A stretch of 40,165 nt of DNA from Confluentibacter flavum (GTDB taxonomy: Bacteria; Bacteroidota; Bacteroidia; Flavobacteriales; Flavobacteriaceae): positions 1-40,165 of the forward strand of contig NZ_PJEO01000039.1 of assembly GCF_002843175.1 (NCBI RefSeq). The letters are read 5' to 3'. A program made the translations under genes and the position numbers. The stretch's first letter is position 1, and each line of letters begins with the position of its first letter. The notes beneath the pieces are model-generated. The model worked only from the letters and a program-made list of their open reading frames with translations, did no database searches and had not been told where the DNA came from. This document shows, in pieces, positions 9,692 to 40,156 of this stretch.

Positions 9692-9703
9692 CTACCTGAA
9701 ATT

Positions 9704-9801
9704 CGTCATTCAGAGCGAAGCGTGGGAATCTGTTTAATAATAATTTCATATTATAAAGATTGCCACGTCTCCCGATAGCTATCGGACTTTTCGCAATGGC
9801 G
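9704..9801. repeat. 98-bp imperfect palindromic repeat upstream of leuS
   Basis: It begins cgtcattcagagcgaagcg and ends ttttcgcaatggcg, with inner arms gggaatctg and agattgccacg in the general pattern cgtcatt-...-aatctg / agattgcca-...-gcaatgacg. A related copy lies just after leuS at 13313-13410. The right arm contains a nested CCGATAGCTATCGG palindrome (9772-9785). This resembles widely dispersed flavobacterial intergenic repeats and could form a long hairpin in the leuS leader. Confidence 0.75.
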
Positions 9802-9820
9802 TAAATATTTGCAGTAAATA

Positions 9821-12800
9821 ATGAAATACAATTTCAACGAGATAGAAGCCAAATGGCAAAAATATTGGGCCGATAACCAAACGTTTAAAGCAAAAAACCC
9901 TCCCCTTTTGGGTGAGATGGAGGGGGCTCCTAAATTTTACGTGTTAGATATGTTTCCGTACCCAAGCGGTGCTGGCTTACACGTGGGGCATCCGTTAGGC
10001 TATATCGCTTCCGATATTTATGCACGTTACAAACGCCATAAAGGCTTTAACGTATTGCATCCGCAAGGTTATGATAGTTTTGGCTTGCCAGCGGAACAAT
10101 ATGCCATTCAAACAGGACAACATCCAGCGTTGACAACCGAAGAAAACATTAAAACGTATCGTCGTCAATTAGACCAAATCGGATTTTCATTTGATTGGTC
10201 GCGTGAAGTGCGAACATCCGACCCAAGTTATTATAAATGGACCCAATGGATTTTCATTCAATTGTTCAATTCTTGGTATAATAAGGATAGTAATAAAGCT
10301 GAAGACATTTCAGAACTCATAAAGATATTTGCTTCGGAAGGAAATTTAAAAGTGAACGCTGTTTGCGATGATACTATCGAATCCTTTTCTGCGGAAGCAT
10401 GGAACGCTTTTGATACCGTTAAACAACAACAAATTTTATTACAATATAGATTGACTTATTTGGCTGAAACCGAAGTGAACTGGTGTCCTGCATTGGGAAC
10501 GGTTTTGGCAAATGATGAAATAGTCAATGGCGTTTCCGAACGTGGTGGTCATCCCGTTATCCGTAAAAAGATGACCCAATGGAGCATGCGCATTTCGGCT
10601 TATGCTGAGCGTTTGCTTCAAGGTTTGGAAACCATCGATTGGACGGAATCTTTAAAAGAAACCCAACGTAACTGGATAGGGAAATCGGTTGGGGCTTCTG
10701 TATTTTTCCCCATCCTATCCTTCCCCAAGGGGGAAGAGAAAGCAGGCTCTGAAAAGCGACCTGGATATTTGACTGGGGGTAATAATTCTCATTTAATTTT
10801 AGAAAGGGCTAAAGAGATGCGTGCAAATCCAACTCTGGCAGAAGCAGCTCTTTGGGAACAATTAAGGAATAAAAACCTTGATGCAAAGTTTAGACAACAG
10901 CATTTAATAGAAGATTATATTGTCGATTTTGTTTGCTTAGATAAAAAATTGATTGTCGAAGTAGATGGTAAAATCCATGATTCTCAAATAGAAGAAGATG
11001 CTAAGCGAACCGAAATTCTAGAAAATAATTACTACAAAGTCATTCGATTTACCAATGATGAAGTTTTAGGAAATATTGAAGGTGTTTTAAAAACGATTCA
11101 AGAAGAATTATCTAAAAGAGCATCGGTTAAGAATACGCAAGTTCCCCCTTCGGGGGCTAGGGGGATTGAAGTTTTCACAACCCGCCCCGACACCATTTTC
11201 GGAGTGTCATTTATGACATTAGCTCCAGAACACGAACTAGTATCTCAAATCACAAGCCCAGCACAAAAAGCTGAGGTGGAAGCCTATATTGAAGCAACAG
11301 CCAAACGTAGCGAACGCGATAGAATGGCGGATGTAAAAACCATTTCCGGAGCATTTACTGGGGCGTATGCAGAACATCCGTTTACCAAAGAACCTATTCC
11401 GGTGTGGATTGGCGATTACGTGCTAGCAGGTTACGGAACAGGTGCTGTAATGTCTGTGCCATGTGGTGACCAACGTGATTACGATTTTGCAAAACATTTC
11501 AATATCCCTATTCTAAACATTTTCTCGATAACCAACCCCCCTCCTTCGGAGGGGTCGGGGGAGGATAAAGCTTTTACTGAAAAGTCTGGATTTGTTTTAA
11601 TGAATTCAGGGTTTTTAAATGGATTAAGCTACAAAGAAGCCACTCAAAAAGTCATTATTGAACTTGAAAAACTAGGACAAGGACAAGGTAAAACCAATTA
11701 CCGTTTGCGTGATGCGGTATTTAGTCGCCAGCGTTATTGGGGCGAGCCATTCCCAGTGTATTATGTAGATGGGATGCCACAAATGATTGATGCCAAACAT
11801 TTACCCATAAAATTACCAGAAGTTGAAAAATATTTACCAACCGAAACTGGCGAGCCACCTTTAGGTAACGCTAAAAAATGGTATTGGTTGCAATACGGCG
11901 ATAAAGCAGACATAGTCTCTAAAGAGGAGTTTGATAATTCCTCCCCTTTGGGGAGGTTAGGTGGGGCTTTAGAACTCAACACCATGCCAGGTTGGGCAGG
12001 GAGTTCGTGGTATTTTAATCGTTATATGGATGAGCATAACGAAAACGAGTTTGCCAGTAAAGAAGCCTTAAACTATTGGAAAGATGTTGATTTATACATT
12101 GGTGGCAGCGAACACGCCACAGGCCATTTATTATACTCGCGTTTTTGGCAAAAATTCTTGTTTGATAAAGGATTGGTGCCTGTGGATGAATATGCCAAAA
12201 AGCTGATTAACCAGGGGATGATTTTGGGGACTAGTGCTTTTGTTAAAAATTTAAATTTTGTCTTTAAATACAAAAGTGAAGAAGATTTAATTGAGGATAC
12301 ACCTACGGCTTCAGTTTATTTTGCTCCATTATATGTGTCTAATAATATTTTAAAAGATAAAGAGAGACTTGAAAAATTATTAATTGATTTAATAAACTCT
12401 AATAGCAAGTTTAAAACTCTTAAAAATTATATTCAATCAGGAAAATTTGAAACAGAACCGGAAATTTTCTTTTATGAAAAACATGCTGATGTTTCTTTCG
12501 TAAATGCATCAGATGAATTGAATATTGAAGCCTTCAAAAATTGGAGAGAAGAATATAAAAATGCTGAATTTATTTGTGAAGAAGACGGGACTTTCAGAGT
12601 AAAACGCGAAGTGGAAAAAATGTCCAAATCCAAATACAATGTGGTCAATCCAGACCAAATTTGTGTTGAATATGGTGCCGACAGCTTACGTCTTTACGAA
12701 ATGTTTTTAGGGCCTTTAGAACAATACAAACCTTGGAATACAGCAGGAATTACAGGTGTTCATGGTTTCCTTAAAAAACTGTGGAGATTATATCACCAAG

Positions 12801-13312
12801 GAGAAAACGAAAGCTTCTACGTAACGAGTTCCCCTCCTTCGGAGGGGTTAGGGGAGGCTCTTAAAACCCTCCACAAAACCATCAAAAAAGTTCAAGAAGA
12901 TATCGAGAATTTCTCATTCAATACATCGGTGTCCTCATTTATGATTGCCGTTAACGAATTAACTGAGCAAAAATGTACCAGCAAAGAGATTCTTGAGCCG
13001 CTATTGATTTTATTGTCACCCTATGCACCACATATTGCTGAAGAATTATGGAGTCAGTTAGGGCATGCCGAATCCATTTCAACAGCACCATTTCCAAAAT
13101 TTTATGCTAGCCATTTGGTAGAAAGCAGTAAAAATTACCCGATTTCTTTCAATGGGAAAATGCGATTTACTTTAGAATTGCCAATGGATTTTAATCCACA
13201 ACAAATTGAAGAAGCGGTGATGGCACACGAAAAAACACAAGAACAATTACAAGGACGTGTTCCTAAAAAAGTGATTATTGTTCCCGGAAAAATAGTAAAT
13301 ATTGTAGGTTAA
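9821..13312 (+). CDS. leuS: Leucyl-tRNA synthetase with DUF559 nuclease domain and repeat-derived insertions
   Basis: Charges tRNA-Leu in the cytoplasm. Class I signatures are intact: HVGH at residues 54-57 and KMSKS at 933-937. The CP1 editing domain has TTRPDTIFG (453-461) and GTGAVMSVPCGDQRDYDFA, and the anticodon-binding/C-terminal part ends PKKVIIVPGKIVNIVG. The frame is 1163 codons, whereas I expect about 920-960 in this phylum. The excess has three visible sources: residues about 297-448, a DUF559 domain with flanks; short Gly/Pro/Glu-rich peptides at about 26-36, 572-583, 707-717 and 1004-1014, each encoded by a GC-rich palindromic repeat; and an unfamiliar lysine/asparagine-rich stretch at about 808-887. 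All are in frame and no other leuS is visible, so it is probably functional. Confidence 0.95.
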   Translation: MKYNFNEIEAKWQKYWADNQTFKAKNPPLLGEMEGAPKFYVLDMFPYPSGAGLHVGHPLGYIASDIYARYKRHKGFNVLHPQGYDSFGLPAEQYAIQTGQHPALTTEENIKTYRRQLDQIGFSFDWSREVRTSDPSYYKWTQWIFIQLFNSWYNKDSNKAEDISELIKIFASEGNLKVNAVCDDTIESFSAEAWNAFDTVKQQQILLQYRLTYLAETEVNWCPALGTVLANDEIVNGVSERGGHPVIRKKMTQWSMRISAYAERLLQGLETIDWTESLKETQRNWIGKSVGASVFFPILSFPKGEEKAGSEKRPGYLTGGNNSHLILERAKEMRANPTLAEAALWEQLRNKNLDAKFRQQHLIEDYIVDFVCLDKKLIVEVDGKIHDSQIEEDAKRTEILENNYYKVIRFTNDEVLGNIEGVLKTIQEELSKRASVKNTQVPPSGARGIEVFTTRPDTIFGVSFMTLAPEHELVSQITSPAQKAEVEAYIEATAKRSERDRMADVKTISGAFTGAYAEHPFTKEPIPVWIGDYVLAGYGTGAVMSVPCGDQRDYDFAKHFNIPILNIFSITNPPPSEGSGEDKAFTEKSGFVLMNSGFLNGLSYKEATQKVIIELEKLGQGQGKTNYRLRDAVFSRQRYWGEPFPVYYVDGMPQMIDAKHLPIKLPEVEKYLPTETGEPPLGNAKKWYWLQYGDKADIVSKEEFDNSSPLGRLGGALELNTMPGWAGSSWYFNRYMDEHNENEFASKEALNYWKDVDLYIGGSEHATGHLLYSRFWQKFLFDKGLVPVDEYAKKLINQGMILGTSAFVKNLNFVFKYKSEEDLIEDTPTASVYFAPLYVSNNILKDKERLEKLLIDLINSNSKFKTLKNYIQSGKFETEPEIFFYEKHADVSFVNASDELNIEAFKNWREEYKNAEFICEEDGTFRVKREVEKMSKSKYNVVNPDQICVEYGADSLRLYEMFLGPLEQYKPWNTAGITGVHGFLKKLWRLYHQGENESFYVTSSPPSEGLGEALKTLHKTIKKVQEDIENFSFNTSVSSFMIAVNELTEQKCTSKEILEPLLILLSPYAPHIAEELWSQLGHAESISTAPFPKFYASHLVESSKNYPISFNGKMRFTLELPMDFNPQQIEEAVMAHEKTQEQLQGRVPKKVIIVPGKIVNIVG
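9898..9928 (+). repeat. In-frame GC-rich palindromic element, copy 1 in leuS
   Basis: ccctccccttttgggtga followed by tggagggggct encodes NPPLLGEMEGA in the N-terminal region just before the KFYVLDMFPYPSG block. It has the hairpin-then-G-rich-tail order of the other copies but is the most diverged. Confidence 0.6.
10709..10736 (-). repeat. Inverted copy of the palindromic element at the left end of the DUF559 insert
   Basis: CTTCCCCAAGGGGGAAG (10720-10736) is the hairpin core, with the C-rich tail ccccatcctatc to its left, that is pointing outward. It is in the opposite orientation to the copy at 11142-11164. Confidence 0.7.
11142..11164 (+). repeat. Palindromic element at the right end of the DUF559 insert
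   Basis: CCCCCTTCGGGGG (11144-11156) followed by the tail ctaggggg encodes VPPSGARG directly before IEVFTTRP. It is the mirror partner of the element at 10709-10736 and shares its inner bases TTCCCCCTT in inverted orientation. Confidence 0.75.
11536..11564 (+). repeat. In-frame palindromic element, copy 4 in leuS
   Basis: CCTCCTTCGGAGG core with upstream C-run and tail gtcgggggagg, encoding NPPPSEGSGED between IFSIT and KAFTEKSGFVLMNSGF in the region after the editing domain. Confidence 0.8.
11940..11970 (+). repeat. In-frame palindromic element, copy 5 in leuS
   Basis: CCTCCCCtttGGGGAGG followed by ttaggtggggct, encoding SSPLGRLGGA just before LELNTMPGWAGSSWYF. The stem is a perfect 7 bp. 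Confidence 0.8.
12831..12860 (+). repeat. In-frame palindromic element, copy 6 in leuS
   Basis: CCCCTCCttcGGAGGGG followed by ttaggggaggct, encoding SPPSEGLGEA between NESFYVTS and LKTLHKTIKKVQEDI. This is the clearest copy and serves as the consensus. Confidence 0.85.
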
Positions 13313-13410
13313 CGTCATTACGAGGAGCGCAGCGACGTGGTAATCTGTTCAATATAAAGTTTAATTAAAAAGATTGCCACAACTTTTTATCAAAAGTTTC
13401 GCAATGAACG
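13313..13410. repeat. 98-bp imperfect palindromic repeat downstream of leuS
   Basis: It begins cgtcattacgaggagcgcag one base after the leuS stop and ends gtttcgcaatgaacg, with inner arms gtggtaatctg and agattgccac. It is related to the repeat at 9704-9801. It may act as a terminator-like hairpin for leuS, but no clean T-run is present. Confidence 0.75.
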
Positions 13411-13432
13411 TTCTAAATTAAAATTTTAAACA

Positions 13433-13738
13433 ATGAAACACATATATATTATTTCGATTCTTTTTCTGTTTATGGCATGCTCAAATAGTAAACCAAAAAA
13501 ACAAACTGTAGAATTGTCTTGCGGCCAATGTCAATTTGGATTGACTTCTCAAAAAGGTTGCGATTTAGCAGTTCGTATTAATGAAAAGGCTTATTTTGTA
13601 GATGGCGCAGATATAGACGAATTCGGTGATGCTCATGATGAAAATTCCGGATTTTGTGAAGTCATTAGAAAAGCAGAAGTGGAAGGCGAATTAATTAATA
13701 ATAGGTTTAAAGTAACAACCGTAAAGTTACTGGATTAA
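13433..13738 (+). CDS. Small lipoprotein, DUF6370-like
   Basis: A 101-residue protein with a lipoprotein signal peptide (MKHIYIISILFLFMAC, cysteine at 16 as probable lipidation site). The mature part has ELSCGQCQFGLTSQKGCDLAVRINEKAYFVDGADIDEFGDAHDENSGFC, whose paired cysteines and GC-x-LAVR block I associate with a small Bacteroidota family (DUF6370). The CxxC could bind metal or form a disulfide. It ends 3 bp before the SemiSWEET gene, so the two are probably one transcript. The function is unknown. Confidence 0.75.
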   Translation: MKHIYIISILFLFMACSNSKPKKQTVELSCGQCQFGLTSQKGCDLAVRINEKAYFVDGADIDEFGDAHDENSGFCEVIRKAEVEGELINNRFKVTTVKLLD

Positions 13739-18677: not shown

Positions 18678-20277
18678 GTAGTTCAAGAGGATGTATTTGT
18701 TCCCAATCTGCTCTAACAGGGTCATTAATTTCAAAATAGCTTGAATTTTCGGGCTGAATTTTTTTGAGATAATTTCCAGTATCGTATTTTCTGTTGCCAT
18801 TAACATCATTAATAACTCTGACTTGATATTTGCTTGGAGTTAAATTCAAGAAATCTAAATCCTCTTGTTTTGTAGAATACTTTTCATATCTAATATCACC
18901 ATTTTCAGTAATTAATTGGACAATGATAGGGTAGGTCGCATTTATTACTTGTAATCTCCAAGAGCCAAAATTGCTTTTTTTGGGAGTTGCTAATTTGTAA
19001 TTTAATGAGTCGTTTGTATCTCCAAAAATATCTGTAAAAGTTTCAGGTAAGACACTTATATTATAACTATTATCTTCGGTTTTTATAAAATTTAATGCTA
19101 AGGTGTTTGAAATAGTATCAAATGCTGAAGAGAAGGTAACTTCTGTAGAATCTTTATCTATAATAGCTATTTTAGTCGTGTCAAAAGATTTAAAAGGTGT
19201 TGTTCCAAAAATTTTAAAATCCTGATCGTATCCAATACTTCCACTAGTATTTGTATTAATAACCAACGTATCTCTTTTATTATCTTTCAACCTAATAACA
19301 AAATCTTGTTTAAAATCATCCTTAGATACATTAAAAACTAAAGAGTCGAGTTCTAGTTTTGGTTGATACCAATAGTAAAGCGTATCGGTTTCAACATCCT
19401 TCGTTGTTCTAGATAAAAAACCTTCAGGCACATCTGATTTTAAAGTGATTTGCATGTCTTTATAATCACCTTCATAGCCAAAAGCAATTTTTCCGCCCGA
19501 AATTAATTGTGGCCTAACCGCATTAAAATTGGTAGCTTCTTTGAAAAGTTTTAAGGTGTATAAAGAATCTGTTGGAACATCTATGAAGCTTTTATGAAAG
19601 GCTATTTTATCTGTTTTTTGCTGAAATTTATTATCATTATTCGCATCCTTCAAGGCAACCAACATATATTTTCCTGCTTTTACATTATCTATTGAAAATG
19701 TGGTAACACTATCTAATGTATTGGTAATGTATTTAGGTGGGTTTTTGTAAATAACGGAATCAGTATACGTAGAATCTACTTCATATAACATGACGGACAC
19801 AAACGTATCTGGAGCTAGTTTTTCAGCATCCAATATATTGCCCTTAACGGAAAGAGAATCTATATAATCACCCGTAGAAAATACATATTTGTAATATGGA
19901 TATGGGTTACCTTCATTATTATCTGTTATGCTATTTCCAAAATTGAACGCATACGTAGTGTTAGGTGGTAGCGTGTCATAAATTTTAATACTAATATATT
20001 TACTTGCGTTTCCCAACGGTATTATTTCCGGTTGTGTGTTCATGGGAGGCGAAATAATGAGCTGTTTTTGTATGTCCTTTATCTTAATATATTCATCAAA
20101 ATAAATTTTAATTTCTTTACCATTAAAATGGATGGAATAATTTTCGGGTTCTGTCTTTATAATTTTCGGAGGGTCAAGATCTTTTGGGCCACCTTCAGGG
20201 TTGCCACGATTGGCACAGTTAATAAAAAGAGCGCTTATAAAAACTATTAATATGAAATTTGAAAGTGTCTTATTCAT
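18667..20277 (-). CDS. Lipoprotein with N-terminal Ig-like domain
   Basis: A large (536-residue) exported lipoprotein. The signal peptide MNKTLSNFILIVFISALFINC gives a lipobox ending at Cys21. It is followed by ANRGNPEGGPKDLDPPKIIKTEPEN, the N-terminus typical of Bacteroidota Ig-like (Big_5) proteins, then FNGKEIKIYFDEYIKI. The rest is beta-rich, with carboxypeptidase-like repeats (KAGKYMLVALKDANNDNKFQ and PSKYQVRVINDVNGNRKYDTGNYL). The start at 20277 is chosen because the leader before it matches the leader of the next lipoprotein gene; an ATG at 20298 overlaps the likely -7 element. It is probably a surface or periplasmic protein of unknown role. Confidence 0.85.
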   Translation of the reverse strand: MNKTLSNFILIVFISALFINCANRGNPEGGPKDLDPPKIIKTEPENYSIHFNGKEIKIYFDEYIKIKDIQKQLIISPPMNTQPEIIPLGNASKYISIKIYDTLPPNTTYAFNFGNSITDNNEGNPYPYYKYVFSTGDYIDSLSVKGNILDAEKLAPDTFVSVMLYEVDSTYTDSVIYKNPPKYITNTLDSVTTFSIDNVKAGKYMLVALKDANNDNKFQQKTDKIAFHKSFIDVPTDSLYTLKLFKEATNFNAVRPQLISGGKIAFGYEGDYKDMQITLKSDVPEGFLSRTTKDVETDTLYYWYQPKLELDSLVFNVSKDDFKQDFVIRLKDNKRDTLVINTNTSGSIGYDQDFKIFGTTPFKSFDTTKIAIIDKDSTEVTFSSAFDTISNTLALNFIKTEDNSYNISVLPETFTDIFGDTNDSLNYKLATPKKSNFGSWRLQVINATYPIIVQLITENGDIRYEKYSTKQEDLDFLNLTPSKYQVRVINDVNGNRKYDTGNYLKKIQPENSSYFEINDPVRADWEQIHPLELLKQ

Positions 20278-20323
20278 TACCAAATGAAACTTTTGCACAA
20301 ACCTACATAATTTTAGAGATATA
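20272..20323 (-). repeat. Duplicated promoter/leader block, copy A
   Basis: This 52-bp block covers the first two codons and upstream region of the Ig-like lipoprotein gene. It differs from copy B (22616-22667) at only four positions by my alignment, with no gaps. Confidence 0.85.
20298..20305 (-). promoter_or_regulatory. -7 element TAGGTTTG in a duplicated leader
   Basis: On the minus strand TAGGTTTG lies 20 bp before the ATG at 20277, inside a 52-bp block (20272-20323) shared with 22616-22667. Confidence 0.55.
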
Positions 20324-20374
20324 TTGTAAGGGTTAAGTTTGATTTATATAACGCAATAAACATTAATAAATTTT

Positions 20375-22621
20375 TTAGATATTTAAAGGTTTTAATTTAA
20401 TTTCTTGTGGTTGTGAATTGCCTTCCAGAATTTTATAGAAAGTATTTAATTTAATATTTTCAAATACTTGTTGCGTGCCGCTGCCTGCCCAAATTATTTT
20501 TAATTGAATTATTTTTGAAGCTTTTCCTAAACCTATTTCTGCCCTTAAAGTGGAACAGCCAAAACTCCCTCCCGAGCTGATGGAATTAAAAATAGTGCGT
20601 TGTTTTCCATTCTCCATCACCGTTATTTCTAATTTACTTCCAATGGCAGATCGGTTTGCTTTAGTGCCTTCTAAAGTAAAAGTTACCCACTTATTTTCAT
20701 TTTGATACGGATTCCTAAATAGAGAATTAAAAAAAATGTCGCCTTCAAAAGCGCCTCCCATAACAACATGTATGTCTTGGTCGCCATCATTATCAATATC
20801 AGCAAAAGATACGGCATGTCCTTTTTGTATATTTCCGAATCCTCCAACAGTGGTAACGTCTTGAAAGGTTTCGCCTAAATTATTTCTAAACACTTTATTT
20901 GGTATAGTTGATTGAAAACTCACTTCACCAGTACTTAGATAAATATCGAGGTAGCCATCATTATCCAAGTCACCATAATTAGCTCCCATAGCATAACCAA
21001 TTCTGTTCAGTCCAACTTCATTTGCAACGTCTGTAAAGGTGCCACCATTGTTTTTGTAGAGATGCATGGTTTCTGCATGATAGGGCTCGCCTAAATACTC
21101 ACGTACTATATCATCTGTGATTGGGAAAGAGGTTCCTCGCTCGTAACCAGCTACAAAAATGTCCATCCATCCATCATTATTGTAATCAAAAGACCAAGTA
21201 GGGAAGCTAGAAAATTTCTCGTCCAATCCAACATTAGCACCAACTTCATTAAACGTAATATGTCCTTCTTTATCTTCTCCTTTATTCATAAACAGTAGGT
21301 TTTTACTATTACTGTGAAGAGTTGATACATATATATCCATCCATCCATCATTATTATAATCAGCCGCAGTAACGCCTTTTACATAGTAGAAATTTTGAGC
21401 ATCGCTTACCGTAAGTCCCGCATTTATGGTATCATTGGAAAAAGTACCATCACCATTGTTCATATACAATTCGCATGGATATATATTATCTTTATCAGAT
21501 TCATTTCCAATAAATAAGTCTATCAAACCATCATTGTTGAAATCTGCCCACACCGCTGTTTGGGTTGGGTGAAATGATAGTAAACCGGCTTCAATAGTAA
21601 CATCTGTAAAGGTATTGTCCCCATTATTTCGTAACAATGAATTAGGTTGTTTGCCTGAAGCCCCCATCCATGCGCCTCTTAAAATTAAAACATCTAAAAA
21701 GCCATCATTGTTATAATCGGCTTGTACCATATTTAATCCACCTCCAGTTTCCATAATGCCTGCTGTTTCAGATTTTTCAGTAAAACTGCCATCACCATTG
21801 TTTACAAAATACCTTAGGTGGTGCGTAGGAAACCAACTAGACGCCATAACATCTAACAAATTATCATTATTAAAATCATCTACCACACTACCACCAGAGA
21901 GTTCATTGACATTTAAACCTAATTTAGGGGCAATATCTTCGAATTTTTTTAGCGGATATTCCGATTGAAAAACACTTTCTGGTATTAGAAATTTCTCTGG
22001 TACACCAGATGGGTATTCTCCTAAAGTCATATAGGCCACATTTAATAGCCAACGGCTAGTTAAATCATGGGAATTGTAGCTCAACATATCCTCATATAGC
22101 AATATGGCTTTTCTGGATCCTTCTTGAACATGGTGGAAGCCTTTAGGAGCAATAGGAATTATACAGGATGCTGAGGCATCATGGTGGTGAAAGCAATTTT
22201 CCTGCTCACCTAAACGCAAATAAGAAAGGGCAAGCAGTGGTCCTATCTTTGCTTCTTCATTAGAATCTAAGTTATACCGTAAAGAACCCTTTTTGCTTTT
22301 TCCCCATAAATCTTCTAAAACTTTGATGGCCTCTTTGGTTTTTCCAGCATAGAGGAGCGCTTCGCCTTTTTTTAAATTATAACCATCTTTTTGATTGGCA
22401 GGAGCAATTTTAGAAATACTATCAAAATAAGCAGCTCTAGCCGAGGATAGATAAAAATTTTCATGCGCAAAAAATTGTTCTGTAGCCGTTTTTTTAATAA
22501 GTTCAGCCATGGTCGTTTCTTTTTTACCACATGAAGAAATTATTAAGAACAGAAATAAAATTTTTAGTAAATACTTTTGGATTTTAAACATTTTTGATAA
22601 AAAATTAATGATTAAATTCAT
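20375..22621 (-). CDS. FG-GAP/VCBS and ASPIC/UnbV lipoprotein (CRTAC1-like)
   Basis: A 748-residue exported protein. The N-terminus has a lipoprotein signal (LLKILFLFLIISSC). About residues 40-220 look TPR-like (KKGEALLYAGKTKEAIKVLEDLW; SRWLLNVAYMTLGEYPSG). Then come seven calcium-binding FG-GAP motifs of the form D-x-N-N-D-G-x-x-D (for example DYNNDGFLDV, DFNNDGLIDL, DYNNDGWMDI twice, DLDNDGYLDI, DIDNDGDQDI), a beta-propeller. The C-terminus is an ASPIC/UnbV domain (GSKLEITVMENGKQ; GCSTLRAEIGLGKASK). The start at 22621 matches the shared leader; MFKIQKYL ten codons later would still leave a signal peptide. Probably surface-exposed adhesion or binding; the ligand is unknown. Confidence 0.9.
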   Translation of the reverse strand: MNLIINFLSKMFKIQKYLLKILFLFLIISSCGKKETTMAELIKKTATEQFFAHENFYLSSARAAYFDSISKIAPANQKDGYNLKKGEALLYAGKTKEAIKVLEDLWGKSKKGSLRYNLDSNEEAKIGPLLALSYLRLGEQENCFHHHDASASCIIPIAPKGFHHVQEGSRKAILLYEDMLSYNSHDLTSRWLLNVAYMTLGEYPSGVPEKFLIPESVFQSEYPLKKFEDIAPKLGLNVNELSGGSVVDDFNNDNLLDVMASSWFPTHHLRYFVNNGDGSFTEKSETAGIMETGGGLNMVQADYNNDGFLDVLILRGAWMGASGKQPNSLLRNNGDNTFTDVTIEAGLLSFHPTQTAVWADFNNDGLIDLFIGNESDKDNIYPCELYMNNGDGTFSNDTINAGLTVSDAQNFYYVKGVTAADYNNDGWMDIYVSTLHSNSKNLLFMNKGEDKEGHITFNEVGANVGLDEKFSSFPTWSFDYNNDGWMDIFVAGYERGTSFPITDDIVREYLGEPYHAETMHLYKNNGGTFTDVANEVGLNRIGYAMGANYGDLDNDGYLDIYLSTGEVSFQSTIPNKVFRNNLGETFQDVTTVGGFGNIQKGHAVSFADIDNDGDQDIHVVMGGAFEGDIFFNSLFRNPYQNENKWVTFTLEGTKANRSAIGSKLEITVMENGKQRTIFNSISSGGSFGCSTLRAEIGLGKASKIIQLKIIWAGSGTQQVFENIKLNTFYKILEGNSQPQEIKLKPLNI

Positions 22622-22667
22622 TACTAAATGAAATTTTTACACAAACCTACATGATTTTAGAGATATA
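22616..22667 (-). repeat. Duplicated promoter/leader block, copy B
   Basis: Partner of 20272-20323, with 48 of 52 positions identical by eye. It spans TATATCTCTAAAAT, the TAGGTTTG element and TTTCATTT up to ATGAAT. Confidence 0.85.
22642..22649 (-). promoter_or_regulatory. -7 element TAGGTTTG in the duplicated leader, second copy
   Basis: Same element and same 20-bp distance to the ATG (22621) as in the Ig-like lipoprotein gene. Confidence 0.55.
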
Positions 22668-22842
22668 ATGACAAGATTGAAAAGTTTGTTGATTAGGATT
22701 TTTTATTATCTTAATTGCTAAATTAAAAAACGAATTATATTATATTGTGAATTAAACCATTACAGATTGATTCAGTCTAATGAAAGATTGGAAAAATCAC
22801 ATAAAAAATAAATTCATTTTAGCAACAATTAAACTCAAAATT

Positions 22843-23181
22843 ATGACAAAAAAAATTTTTATCCTATTATTCTTTTTAGGAAGTGTTGCCACTTTTGCAC
22901 AAAGCAAAATTGATGGCAAATGGAAAGGTACTCGTGAAGGACAAAATGGTACCATTGAATTAAATTACACCTTTAAAGTTGAAGGAGACAAACTTACTGG
23001 AACTTCAACAACCCCTAGAGGTGAAAATCCAATTGAGAACGGGAAAGTTGACGGTAATAAATTCTCGTACACAATGTCATTTGGAGAGATGACCATAGAG
23101 AACAACGGAGAATTAGTAAGCGATAACGAAATCGTTATTAAAACCCAAAGAGGAGAAATGAAACTCACTAGAGTGGAATAA
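22843..23181 (+). CDS. Small secreted protein, tandem paralogue 1
   Basis: A 112-residue protein with a Sec signal peptide (MTKKIFILLFFLGSVATFAQS). The mature beta-rich domain begins SKIDGKWKGTREGQNGTIELNYTFKVEGDKLTG and continues ENGKVDGNKFSYTMSFGEMTIENNGELVSDNEI. The pattern (WKG, FKVEGxKLTG, GKVDGxKFSY, GELVSDxEI) recurs in two following genes and resembles small domains attached to secreted Bacteroidota enzymes. The start at 22843 is chosen over 22780 for the signal peptide. A terminator follows, so it is probably its own transcript. The function is unknown. Confidence 0.85.
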   Translation: MTKKIFILLFFLGSVATFAQSKIDGKWKGTREGQNGTIELNYTFKVEGDKLTGTSTTPRGENPIENGKVDGNKFSYTMSFGEMTIENNGELVSDNEIVIKTQRGEMKLTRVE

Positions 23182-23199
23182 TTCTAAACCTTATTTTAT

Positions 23200-23236
23200 A
23201 ACCTCAAATAGGAACTTCTTATTTGAGGTTATTTTT
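23200..23236 (+). terminator. Rho-independent terminator after paralogue 1
   Basis: AACCTCAAATA (23200-23210) pairs with TATTTGAGGTT (23220-23230), an 11-bp perfect stem followed by attttttaaa. Confidence 0.88.
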
Positions 23237-23360
23237 TAAATCACAAAACAAACTAAATGCAACAATTATTATGAAATCGCCATAAACAACTAATTTGCTT
23301 GCAAACACCAAGAAGTTAAGCGATTCCATATGACCTTTAAAAAACAAATATTATCTACAT

Positions 23361-23696
23361 ATGAAAAATTTATTTACATTATTGTTTTTTGTGGGATGCT
23401 TTTCCACATTTGCGCAAAGCAAAATTGATGGCGACTGGAAAGGTACCCGCGAAACTCCAAACGGAACATTTGAATTGAATTATACATTTAAAGTTGAAGG
23501 CGAAAAACTCACGGGAATTTGGAAAACCCAATTTGGTGAATCTCCATTAGAAAACGGGAAAGTTGACGGAAATAAATTTTCGTATAGTATTTCTTTTAAT
23601 GACATGACCATTGAAAATACAGGAGAACTTGTTAGCGATGATGAAATAGTCATTAAAAATGAACGAGGCGATATGACACTTGCCAGAGTTAAATAA
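23361..23696 (+). CDS. Small secreted protein, tandem paralogue 2
   Basis: A 111-residue protein with a Sec signal peptide (MKNLFTLLFFVGCFSTFAQS) and a mature domain aligned without gaps to paralogue 1: SKIDGDWKGTRETPNGTFELNYTFKVEGEKLTG, then ENGKVDGNKFSYSISFNDMTIENTGELVSDDEIVIK. The shared central half is nearly identical, while the stretch after KLTG differs (IWKTQFGESPL against TSTTPRGENPI). No terminator is seen between it and paralogue 3, 40 bp downstream, so those two are probably co-transcribed. Unlike paralogues 1 and 3 it starts MKNLF rather than MTKKIF. Confidence 0.85.
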   Translation: MKNLFTLLFFVGCFSTFAQSKIDGDWKGTRETPNGTFELNYTFKVEGEKLTGIWKTQFGESPLENGKVDGNKFSYSISFNDMTIENTGELVSDDEIVIKNERGDMTLARVK

Positions 23697-23736
23697 TTTA
23701 TTTTTTCAAATTTTAAATCAATTAAACTATACAATT

Positions 23737-24081
23737 ATGACTAAAAAAATTTTTATTTTATTATTTCTTGCGGGATGTTTCACCACGTTTGCCCAAAGTA
23801 AGATTGACGGAGACTGGAAAGGTACTGCAGAATCTCCAAATGGGGTGTTTGAATTAGCTTATACTTTTAAAGTTGAAGGCGATAAACTGACTGGAGCCTT
23901 GAAAACCGAATTTGGAGACACACCCATAGAAAATGGGAAAGTTGACGGCAAAAAGTTTTCTTATACACTCTCCTTCAATGGTGACATGGTAATAAACGTT
24001 ACTGGAGAACTTGTTTCAGATGACGAAATTTCAACGAAAACTGATATGGGCGAAACAAAACTTAACAGAGTAAAATCTTAA
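23737..24081 (+). CDS. Small secreted protein, tandem paralogue 3
   Basis: A 114-residue protein with the signal peptide MTKKIFILLFLAGCFTTFAQS, almost that of paralogue 1. The mature domain SKIDGDWKGTAESPNGVFELAYTFKVEGDKLTG then IENGKVDGKKFSYTLSFNGDMVINVTGELVSDDEISTK has one extra residue in the FNGDM loop. The upstream in-frame ATG at 23680 lies inside the end of paralogue 2 and would hide the signal peptide, so 23737 is chosen. It is followed by a terminator that faces comF. Confidence 0.85.
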   Translation: MTKKIFILLFLAGCFTTFAQSKIDGDWKGTAESPNGVFELAYTFKVEGDKLTGALKTEFGDTPIENGKVDGKKFSYTLSFNGDMVINVTGELVSDDEISTKTDMGETKLNRVKS

Positions 24082-39591: not shown

Positions 39592-40156
39592 CCTCGAGGC
39601 TCTGCCTCGGGGACAATAGAGGAAAAGTTTGAAAAACGGATGGTTTTTCATAACACTTTGAAAAAGTGTAGTTTTGAACTATGGATGATCATATTTTAAA
39701 AAGACATAACAAAACATTACTTCTGTATCATTTAGTTTTTCCTGTAAAATATAGGAATTCAGTTATTACAGAGGAAGTTGGATTTGGTTTGAAAGAAATA
39801 TGTATTGATTTGTCACAACGCTATGAAATACATTTTGTGGAAGTTGGTTATGAAGAAAACCATGTTCATTTTTTAATACAAAGTGTTCCCAGTTTGTCGG
39901 TGAGTGAAATTTGTATGAAAGTAAAGAGTATCACGGCGAAAGAAATTTTCAGACGATTTCCTGAAGTGAAGACAAAGCTTTGGGGAGGAAACTTTTGGAC
40001 AAGTGGTTACTATGCAAACACAGTAGGTCAATACGGGAACAAAGATGTTATCAAAAAATATATTGAAAATCAAGGTAAAGAAATAAAATATCAAAAGGTA
40101 TATGAAGCTCAGCTTACACTTTTTGATTTCTAATACTTCGGGGCTCTGCCCCGGGG
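39592..40156 (+). mobile_element. IS200-like element (tnpA only) with end hairpins
   Basis: A Y1-transposase gene is bracketed by two subterminal hairpins with a tct loop: CCTCGAGGC-tct-GCCTCGGGG at 39592-39612, and CGGGGC-tct-GCCCCG at 40139-40153 within a longer stem with G-T pairs (40136-40156). There are no terminal inverted repeats, as expected for this family. No tnpB is present. The window ends 9 bases after the right hairpin, so the exact right end may lie outside it. Confidence 0.8.
39681..40133 (+). CDS. IS200/IS605-family Y1 (HUH) transposase TnpA
   Basis: A 150-residue single-strand DNA transposase. The HUH motif is H61-V-H63 (NHVHFLIQS). The probable catalytic tyrosine is Y127 in VIKKYIENQG, with Q131 one turn away, as in the well-studied family members. 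The N-terminus KTLLLYHLVFPVKYRNSVI and the C-terminal LWGGNFWTSGYYANTVGQYG are also typical. The frame is complete and normal in length, so the enzyme is probably active. The stop lies 2 bp before the right-end stem-loop region. Confidence 0.92.
   Translation: MDDHILKRHNKTLLLYHLVFPVKYRNSVITEEVGFGLKEICIDLSQRYEIHFVEVGYEENHVHFLIQSVPSLSVSEICMKVKSITAKEIFRRFPEVKTKLWGGNFWTSGYYANTVGQYGNKDVIKKYIENQGKEIKYQKVYEAQLTLFDF

Follow-up and report, generated by a model that had tools for sequence, protein, structure and literature searches.

The leuS gene of Confluentibacter flavum carries a complete DUF559 nuclease domain that lies in frame within a loop of leucyl-tRNA synthetase (LeuRS) and is bounded by palindromes. 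The window analysed is the whole stretch of 40,165 nucleotides of contig NZ_PJEO01000039.1. The insert is probably a palindrome-bounded, homing-like nuclease element of core genes, translated without splicing, and we infer its mobility. Relatives with the same kind of element in leuS and in other core genes suggest, at the level of sequence comparison, a mobile element surviving by translation in a host protein. A selfish nuclease normally occupies an essential gene by way of an intron, an intein or an intergenic gap; here one seems to persist as a domain that is translated but not spliced, in tRNA synthetases, a helicase and methionine synthase. If this holds, the large and little-studied DUF559 family would acquire a function and palindromic repeats a candidate enzyme, and enzymes would have one more way to pick up domains. 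Pairs of insert-bearing and insertless leuS genes make homing directly testable.

The chimeric leuS gene

The chimera (positions 9821..13312, plus strand) is a single frame of 1163 aa with no stop codon inside, assigned from the open frame and from Pfam and NCBIfam matches. Comparison with insertless relatives places the stretch that replaces the usual loop at residues 297-448 (10709..11164, plus strand), in agreement with the limits drawn in the sequence-only reading; the insertion is not clean, residues of the loop having been replaced. Within it, the DUF559 domain (PF04480; 10802..11110, plus strand; residues 328-430) has an E value of 3.5e-35 and 120.6 bits against a curated cut-off of 20.6, with D369, E380, D382 and H386 (chimera numbering) as conserved residues. 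In Pfam, the domain sits in the loop ahead of TTRPDT and is flanked on either side by LeuRS domains, including the editing domain PF13603 at residues 447-614 (E 5e-52). The whole product reaches 873 bits with the NCBIfam model leuS_bact (TIGR00396; equivalog cut-off 548). The earlier description of an uninterrupted frame running through a full DUF559 domain and back into LeuRS, with the synthetase motifs intact, is therefore borne out.

The genome (57 contigs, rated 100% complete) contains three PF04480 matches, the chimera included, and a PF13603 search of it found no second leuS, normal or otherwise. The only other PF13603 match, in a 905-aa frame on contig C21, covers 60 of 185 positions and is too partial for that frame to be a leuS. 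An intein splicing domain is absent from the insert, where Pfam gives just DUF559 and MTES_1575; no group I or group II intron RNA matched in Rfam up to E 0.1 across 9700-13500, and no Y1_Tnp match was found by Pfam anywhere in the chimera. Since the intein domain is absent, the nuclease would remain in the LeuRS product. The structure model of the chimera has a mean pLDDT of 67 and a pTM of 0.47, and the insert modelled alone a mean pLDDT of 73. It predicts the DUF559 fold as a unit between the LeuRS strands 288-298 and 448-453, to which it is joined by linkers that are themselves poorly predicted; floppy linkers of this kind would account for the tolerance of LeuRS to the nuclease.

Distribution of the insert at the leuS site

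A search of the genome collection with the insert as query, which may omit genomes very near C. flavum, returned 52 loci. Of these, 46 are leuS genes with a frame passing through DUF559 into TRPDT at the same place (45 found by a site pattern plus L023, which the pattern missed; some end at contig ends or break elsewhere). The others are a leuS whose frame breaks inside DUF559 (L061), a leuS that runs into N (L039), an hsdM gene (L062), two free-standing copies (L064 and L065) and a weak match in a short frame (L066). Carriers of the same-site leuS insert comprise dozens of species, nearly all Flavobacteriaceae, among them Flavivirga, Mariniflexile, Bizionia, Hyunsoonleella, Subsaximicrobium, Gelidibacter, Maribacter, Zunongwangia, Polaribacter, Lutibacter and Aquimarina, plus one Vicingus MAG from another family. 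Inserts at the same site in other genomes practically exclude chance or an assembly error, and the frames run through in dozens of other assemblies.

Across the family the insert is infrequent and patchy. Among 130 evenly drawn and searched family genomes, 128 had a leuS match and nine of these an insert of DUF559 size, two of the nine (G006 and G115) being decayed forms. Four genus-mates of C. flavum are without the insert and have 14 to 27 residues at the site. One genus-mate (L161, G001:C33) has an insert in recG and none in leuS; C. flavum has the leuS insert but no DUF559 match in a recG-sized frame. The usual loop is 14 residues long in many relatives, as the sequence-only reading had supposed in calling it short. 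A non-redundant set of 102 leuS genes was picked to hold both states, 60 with a long insert and 42 without. In the tree of these 102 LeuRS rows, insert presence changes at least 19 times, with 11 of the changes forced by starred branches. The insertless sites measure up to 16 residues in 23 cases and 17 to 53 in 19; several of the longer ones and a few of the shorter ones look by eye like other in-frame short repeats, e.g., GTCATTGCGAGCGAAGCGAAGCAATCTC or CAGAATTCAGAATT. Because other short repeats are also taken in there, the leuS loop appears to be a tolerant spot for repeats in general.

Fold, conservation and decay of the nuclease

The nearest solved relatives of the domain are 3hrl, a Neisseria endonuclease-like protein (profile match, E 5e-30), and the catalytic domain of the homing endonuclease I-Bth0305I (3r3p; profile match E 2.4e-7, Foldseek match to 3r3p_B E 3.6e-5). 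Vsr itself gave a weak fold match in Foldseek. The presumed catalytic residues are nearly constant in the DUF559 alignment (D50 in 146/146 rows, E61 in 145/146, D63 in 144/146 and H67 in 143/146), and all four are fully conserved in the 38 rows of the insert alignment, from which two decayed copies were left out. With decayed copies again left out, the median dN/dS of the 84 pairs whose host dS was below 1.3 came to 0.19 in the insert and 0.12 in the host; judged by these ratios, the nuclease in leuS is under purifying selection. In the leuS loci L248 and L249, the DUF559-like stretch has diverged and no longer has D63 and H67, and the site shows no hairpin with a stem of at least 5. Such sequences may represent the end stage expected of a homing cycle.

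The Vsr-like I-Bth0305I (EDxHD) is thus homologous to the insert in its nuclease domain, by sequence profile as well as by fold, and the likeness in persistence at a fixed site is one of analogy. This homology, with neither an intein domain nor intron-type RNA at the locus, makes the earlier comparison with a homing endonuclease without an intein a good one. The two cases differ in that I-Bth0305I bears the PDB name 'Mobile intron protein', whereas leuS lacks an intron and its nuclease forms part of the host protein. A passage of a review groups I-Bth0305I with the group I intron endonucleases (PMC3943268). In Caulobacter, according to a passage of another paper, a DUF559 protein described as Vsr-like makes the loss of a cytosine methyltransferase harmful (PMC12907096).

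Palindromes in leuS and around DUF559 genes

The left edge of the insert consists of a C-rich tail and a hairpin with a 7-bp stem and a 3-nt loop (10708..10736, plus strand); the right edge is a hairpin with a G-rich tail (11142..11164, plus strand), inverted relative to the left one, so that the tails point outward. Three nuclease-less palindromes lie in frame in the same gene on the plus strand, at 11536..11564 (peptide PPPSEGSGE), 11940..11966 (SSPLGRLGG) and 12831..12857 (SPPSEGLGE). These five structures were missing from the sequence-only reading, whose picture was also incomplete in treating the insert as a single case, given the dozens of species with an insert at this site and the other core genes with DUF559 elements described below. 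When up to two mismatches are allowed, the pattern CCCCTTCGGGGG matches four times in the window, always in leuS, against 0.6 expected, and none of 100 shuffles reached four. A stricter pattern derived from the leuS copies has nine matches in the C. flavum genome, and its reversed control pattern none.

The association of DUF559 with palindromes was surveyed in 299 family genomes, 114 of which had a match at E 1e-10. Among the matches listed (at least 150), 46 lay in open frames over 300 aa and 104 in shorter frames; the 45 long-frame copies besides that of C. flavum were fetched together with 55 of the 104 shorter ones, and 99 passed the profile (45 fused, 54 free). Hairpins were counted when they had a stem of at least 7 and CCC and lay within 200 bp of DUF559, measured from the edges of the conserved core, or within 200 bp of the ORF ends in control genes. 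Under this rule, both sides carried a hairpin in 27 of the 54 free and 13 of the 45 fused copies, in comparison with 0 of 157 control genes from the same loci (non-overlapping ORFs of at least 150 aa; a looser set with overlapping ORFs gave 0/210). Counted by side, left and right hairpins numbered 37 and 37 in the free copies, 27 and 14 in the fused ones, and 3 and 6 in the controls. About half of the free copies fall short of a strict hairpin on at least one side. At the 60 insert-bearing leuS sites, stems of at least 5 occurred in the first 90 bases in 55, in the last 90 in 48 and at both ends in 45. In the part of the copies read by eye, the tails point outward in leuS and inward in many free copies.

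Other host genes and free-standing copies

The 45 fetched fused copies are distributed over leuS (17), recG (9), hemD (9), metH (8, in seven genes, one of which has two copies at two sites), ileS (1) and hisD (1). The fusion is amino-terminal in hemD and carboxy-terminal in hisD. Pfam confirmed DUF559 hosts for one recG, one ileS, one hisD, two metH, two hemD and the hsdM locus L062; NCBIfam names the same hosts except hemD, with hsdM below its cut-off. A DUF559 tree of 146 rows and 117 columns, poorly resolved, needs seven host changes, where the minimum is six and shuffling averages 67.5. In it, the eight metH rows form one clade (support 98, starred), the nine hemD rows group with one free copy (support 99, starred), the nine recG rows group together (support 63) with the single ileS row beside them, and 60 leuS rows fall on one side of a branch with a support of only 25. 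The in-frame elements thus appear, from this tree, to be largely one lineage per host site. The two DUF559 copies in the metH gene of L125 are sisters (support 93), which looks like a jump within one gene.

In the plasmid collection, 11 DUF559 places out of 29 matching records were examined: ten from cyanobacteria and alphaproteobacteria, and the Escherichia coli gene ycjD, whose record is classed as a plasmid. Of the 11, eight had a stem of at least 7 upstream, six had one downstream and four had one on both sides; 0-25% of 60 shuffles match per flank. On a Synechocystis plasmid (L264, CP101712.1), DUF559 and palindromes lie inside a DUF1156 gene; as DUF559 is out of frame there, that host gene is split. 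Phages gave three weak matches.

The DUF559 gene ycjD lies between sapF and fabI. Megablast found it in 3365 of the 5426 complete E. coli genomes, a search in which absence may also mean divergence. Downstream of ycjD is a palindrome that has a G-rich tail and a perfect stem of at most 6, and there is none upstream under the hairpin rule. In one record (H68), a 41-bp piece of this region is matched by itself, and the whole 1500-bp region matches at a median of four places per genome. These matches fit a dispersed repeat, and the palindrome next to ycjD seems to be repeated. As a laboratory species, E. coli may offer a presence/absence system in ycjD.

Exchange of the insert and vertical descent

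Exchange of the insert between species is clear, on sequence grounds, in L024 (Bizionia algoritergicola) and L026 (MAG UBA5079), which agree at all but one position over the final 327 bp of the insert, as far as the right edge, while identity in their nearest leuS flanks is 88% over 120 bp and 89% over 200 bp. Also in common are 32 bp with the left palindrome, and the stretch between differs. The dS of this pair is 0.19 in the insert and 0.71 in the host, and L235, the sister of L026 in the host tree (support 82), is without the insert. Values of the same direction were obtained in L043/L046 (0.04 and 0.47) and L044/L045 (0.11 and 0.46); the opposite direction, with the insert above the host, was seen in L015/L016, L015/L020 and L051/L054. 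At synonymous third positions, the insert was more alike than the host in eight of 1770 non-independent pairs after Bonferroni correction, and the reverse occurred in none. Among the pairs with a P value this low, L150/L248 is too diverged to signify exchange. Clear recent exchange is found in only a few pairs, some of them within one genus.

On a deeper scale, insert identity is correlated with host identity (rho 0.42). The AU test rejected the host topology for the insert, and it rejected the four tested LeuRS blocks of 158 columns each as well. The relative misfit (tree misfit divided by that of a shuffled tree) was 0.24 for the insert and 0.20-0.42 for the blocks. AU rejection was dropped as evidence of transfer, the LeuRS control blocks being rejected to a similar relative degree. 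The insert thus departs from the host tree no more than LeuRS itself does, which leaves room for a largely vertical history with losses. In our reading of these sequences, the history of the insert would be mostly descent with loss on the deep scale and exchange of the insert only on the recent scale. The earlier claim that a nuclease gene had invaded leuS stands as to the in-frame nuclease; the invasion is an interpretation, vertical descent with many losses being compatible as well.

Proposed mechanism and competing readings

In the proposed mechanism, a nuclease of the Vsr fold (DUF559) would act like a free-standing homing endonuclease gene with no splicing partner. The element would reside in loops of core genes with the frame open through both palindromes and the nuclease, so that host protein and nuclease would be made as one polypeptide and splicing would be unnecessary. 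The nuclease would cut element-free alleles, or nick or cut at the palindromes, and repair off the element-bearing copy would convert the empty site. Selection on the host function would hold the frame open. Later, the nuclease may decay or the element be lost, and the loop would shrink back.

A different history would be an ancient insertion, inherited vertically with repeated losses, kept for a use to the host (e.g., repair or defence by a LeuRS-tethered nuclease) and immobile now in leuS. Several observations agree with such a history: the fit of the insert to the host tree is about equal to that of LeuRS blocks to the remaining LeuRS sequence, the nuclease shows the signature of purifying selection, and the leuS inserts group together, at a support of 25. 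We nevertheless hold it to be unlikely, given the patchy presence with its at least 19 changes, the near-identical insert in diverged hosts, and the occurrence of like elements at unrelated positions in recG, metH, ileS, hisD, hsdM and hemD, for which a common host use is hard to see. As for an assembly or frame artefact, or a pseudogene accompanied by a second good leuS, the same-site inserts in dozens of assemblies, the search that found no second leuS and a LeuRS score far over the cut-off make it extremely improbable.

It is also conceivable, and in our estimate quite improbable, that the palindromes are the mobile unit, REP-like and moved by, e.g., a Y1/RAYT transposase, with DUF559 genes as passengers caught between two of them. 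Palindromes without DUF559 do exist, three in this leuS and others elsewhere in the genome; the leuS loop of relatives takes other short repeats; and genome G017 has ten palindrome-pattern matches and no DUF559 at E 1e-10 among the matches listed. REPs within genes, tRNA synthetases among them, are known from a passage in PMC3733652. Against this reading, DUF559 is present in 13 of 16 palindrome-carrier genomes and in 32 of 114 others, a contrast weakened by the derivation of both patterns from DUF559 flanks, some matches being those flanks; when only palindromes more than 1 kb from a listed DUF559 are counted, it is found in 7 of 10 carrier genomes. Y1_Tnp occurs in 6 of 16 carriers and 23 of 114 other genomes.

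Returning to the homing-like element, its closest parallels differ in enzyme or in architecture. It resembles REP/RAYT systems (REPtrons), by analogy, in a nuclease gene placed between palindromes and in nuclease-less palindromes dispersed in the genome, some of them intragenic; the enzyme here is of the DUF559/Vsr fold, whereas RAYT is a Y1 HUH transposase, and an identity of these palindromes with REPs of the GTAG/CGTC type is not implied. Inteins with homing endonucleases are alike in having an in-frame nuclease in an essential gene and unlike it in their intein domain. In fungal mitochondrial rps3, an endonuclease frame and a host protein gene are joined with no intein involved, as in leuS; those endonucleases are organellar, belong to other nuclease families and are not known to have the Vsr fold. 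To our knowledge, Rickettsia palindromic elements and intragenic REPs have no nuclease gene, whereas some copies here hold a whole nuclease domain. What they have in common with the present case is translated palindromes inside coding genes, as a passage of one paper describes (PMC3733652). In the literature covered (most subscription journals lie outside it), no DUF559 work on such inserts or palindromes was found by title, no joint mention of DUF559 and leucyl-tRNA synthetase was found, and co-mentions of DUF559 and 'palindromic' were unrelated by title.

More tentatively, DUF559 proteins at large, perhaps including E. coli ycjD, might be a Vsr-fold counterpart of RAYT/REP that mobilises a broad class of GC-rich palindromes with tails across Bacteroidota, Cyanobacteria and Pseudomonadota. 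In Flavobacteriaceae these elements would have specialised in loops of essential genes, being translated there without splicing, so that imprecise deletion would harm the host.

Other features of the window

Positions 1-1029 look like an insertion sequence at the edge of the window, with a DDE transposase ORF at 105-1010 (PF13612) and inverted repeats at 1-19 and 1011-1029. An IS200-like Y1 transposase lies at 39681-40133; the genome has seven identically scoring copies including this one, three of them at contig starts. Elsewhere in the survey, Y1_Tnp, a further nuclease domain in large proteins, was matched inside open frames of 1172 aa (G000:C1:23798-24100), 1241 aa (G125:C1:1820339-1820671), 677 aa (G051:C88:3738-3941) and 621 aa (G076:C54:940970-941275). 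Positions 22780-24081 of the window hold three small paralogues in tandem, ORFs of 111-133 aa whose starts resemble signal peptides. A 55-nt direct repeat (91%) at 20272-20326 and 22616-22670 covers the start regions of two neighbouring minus-strand genes.
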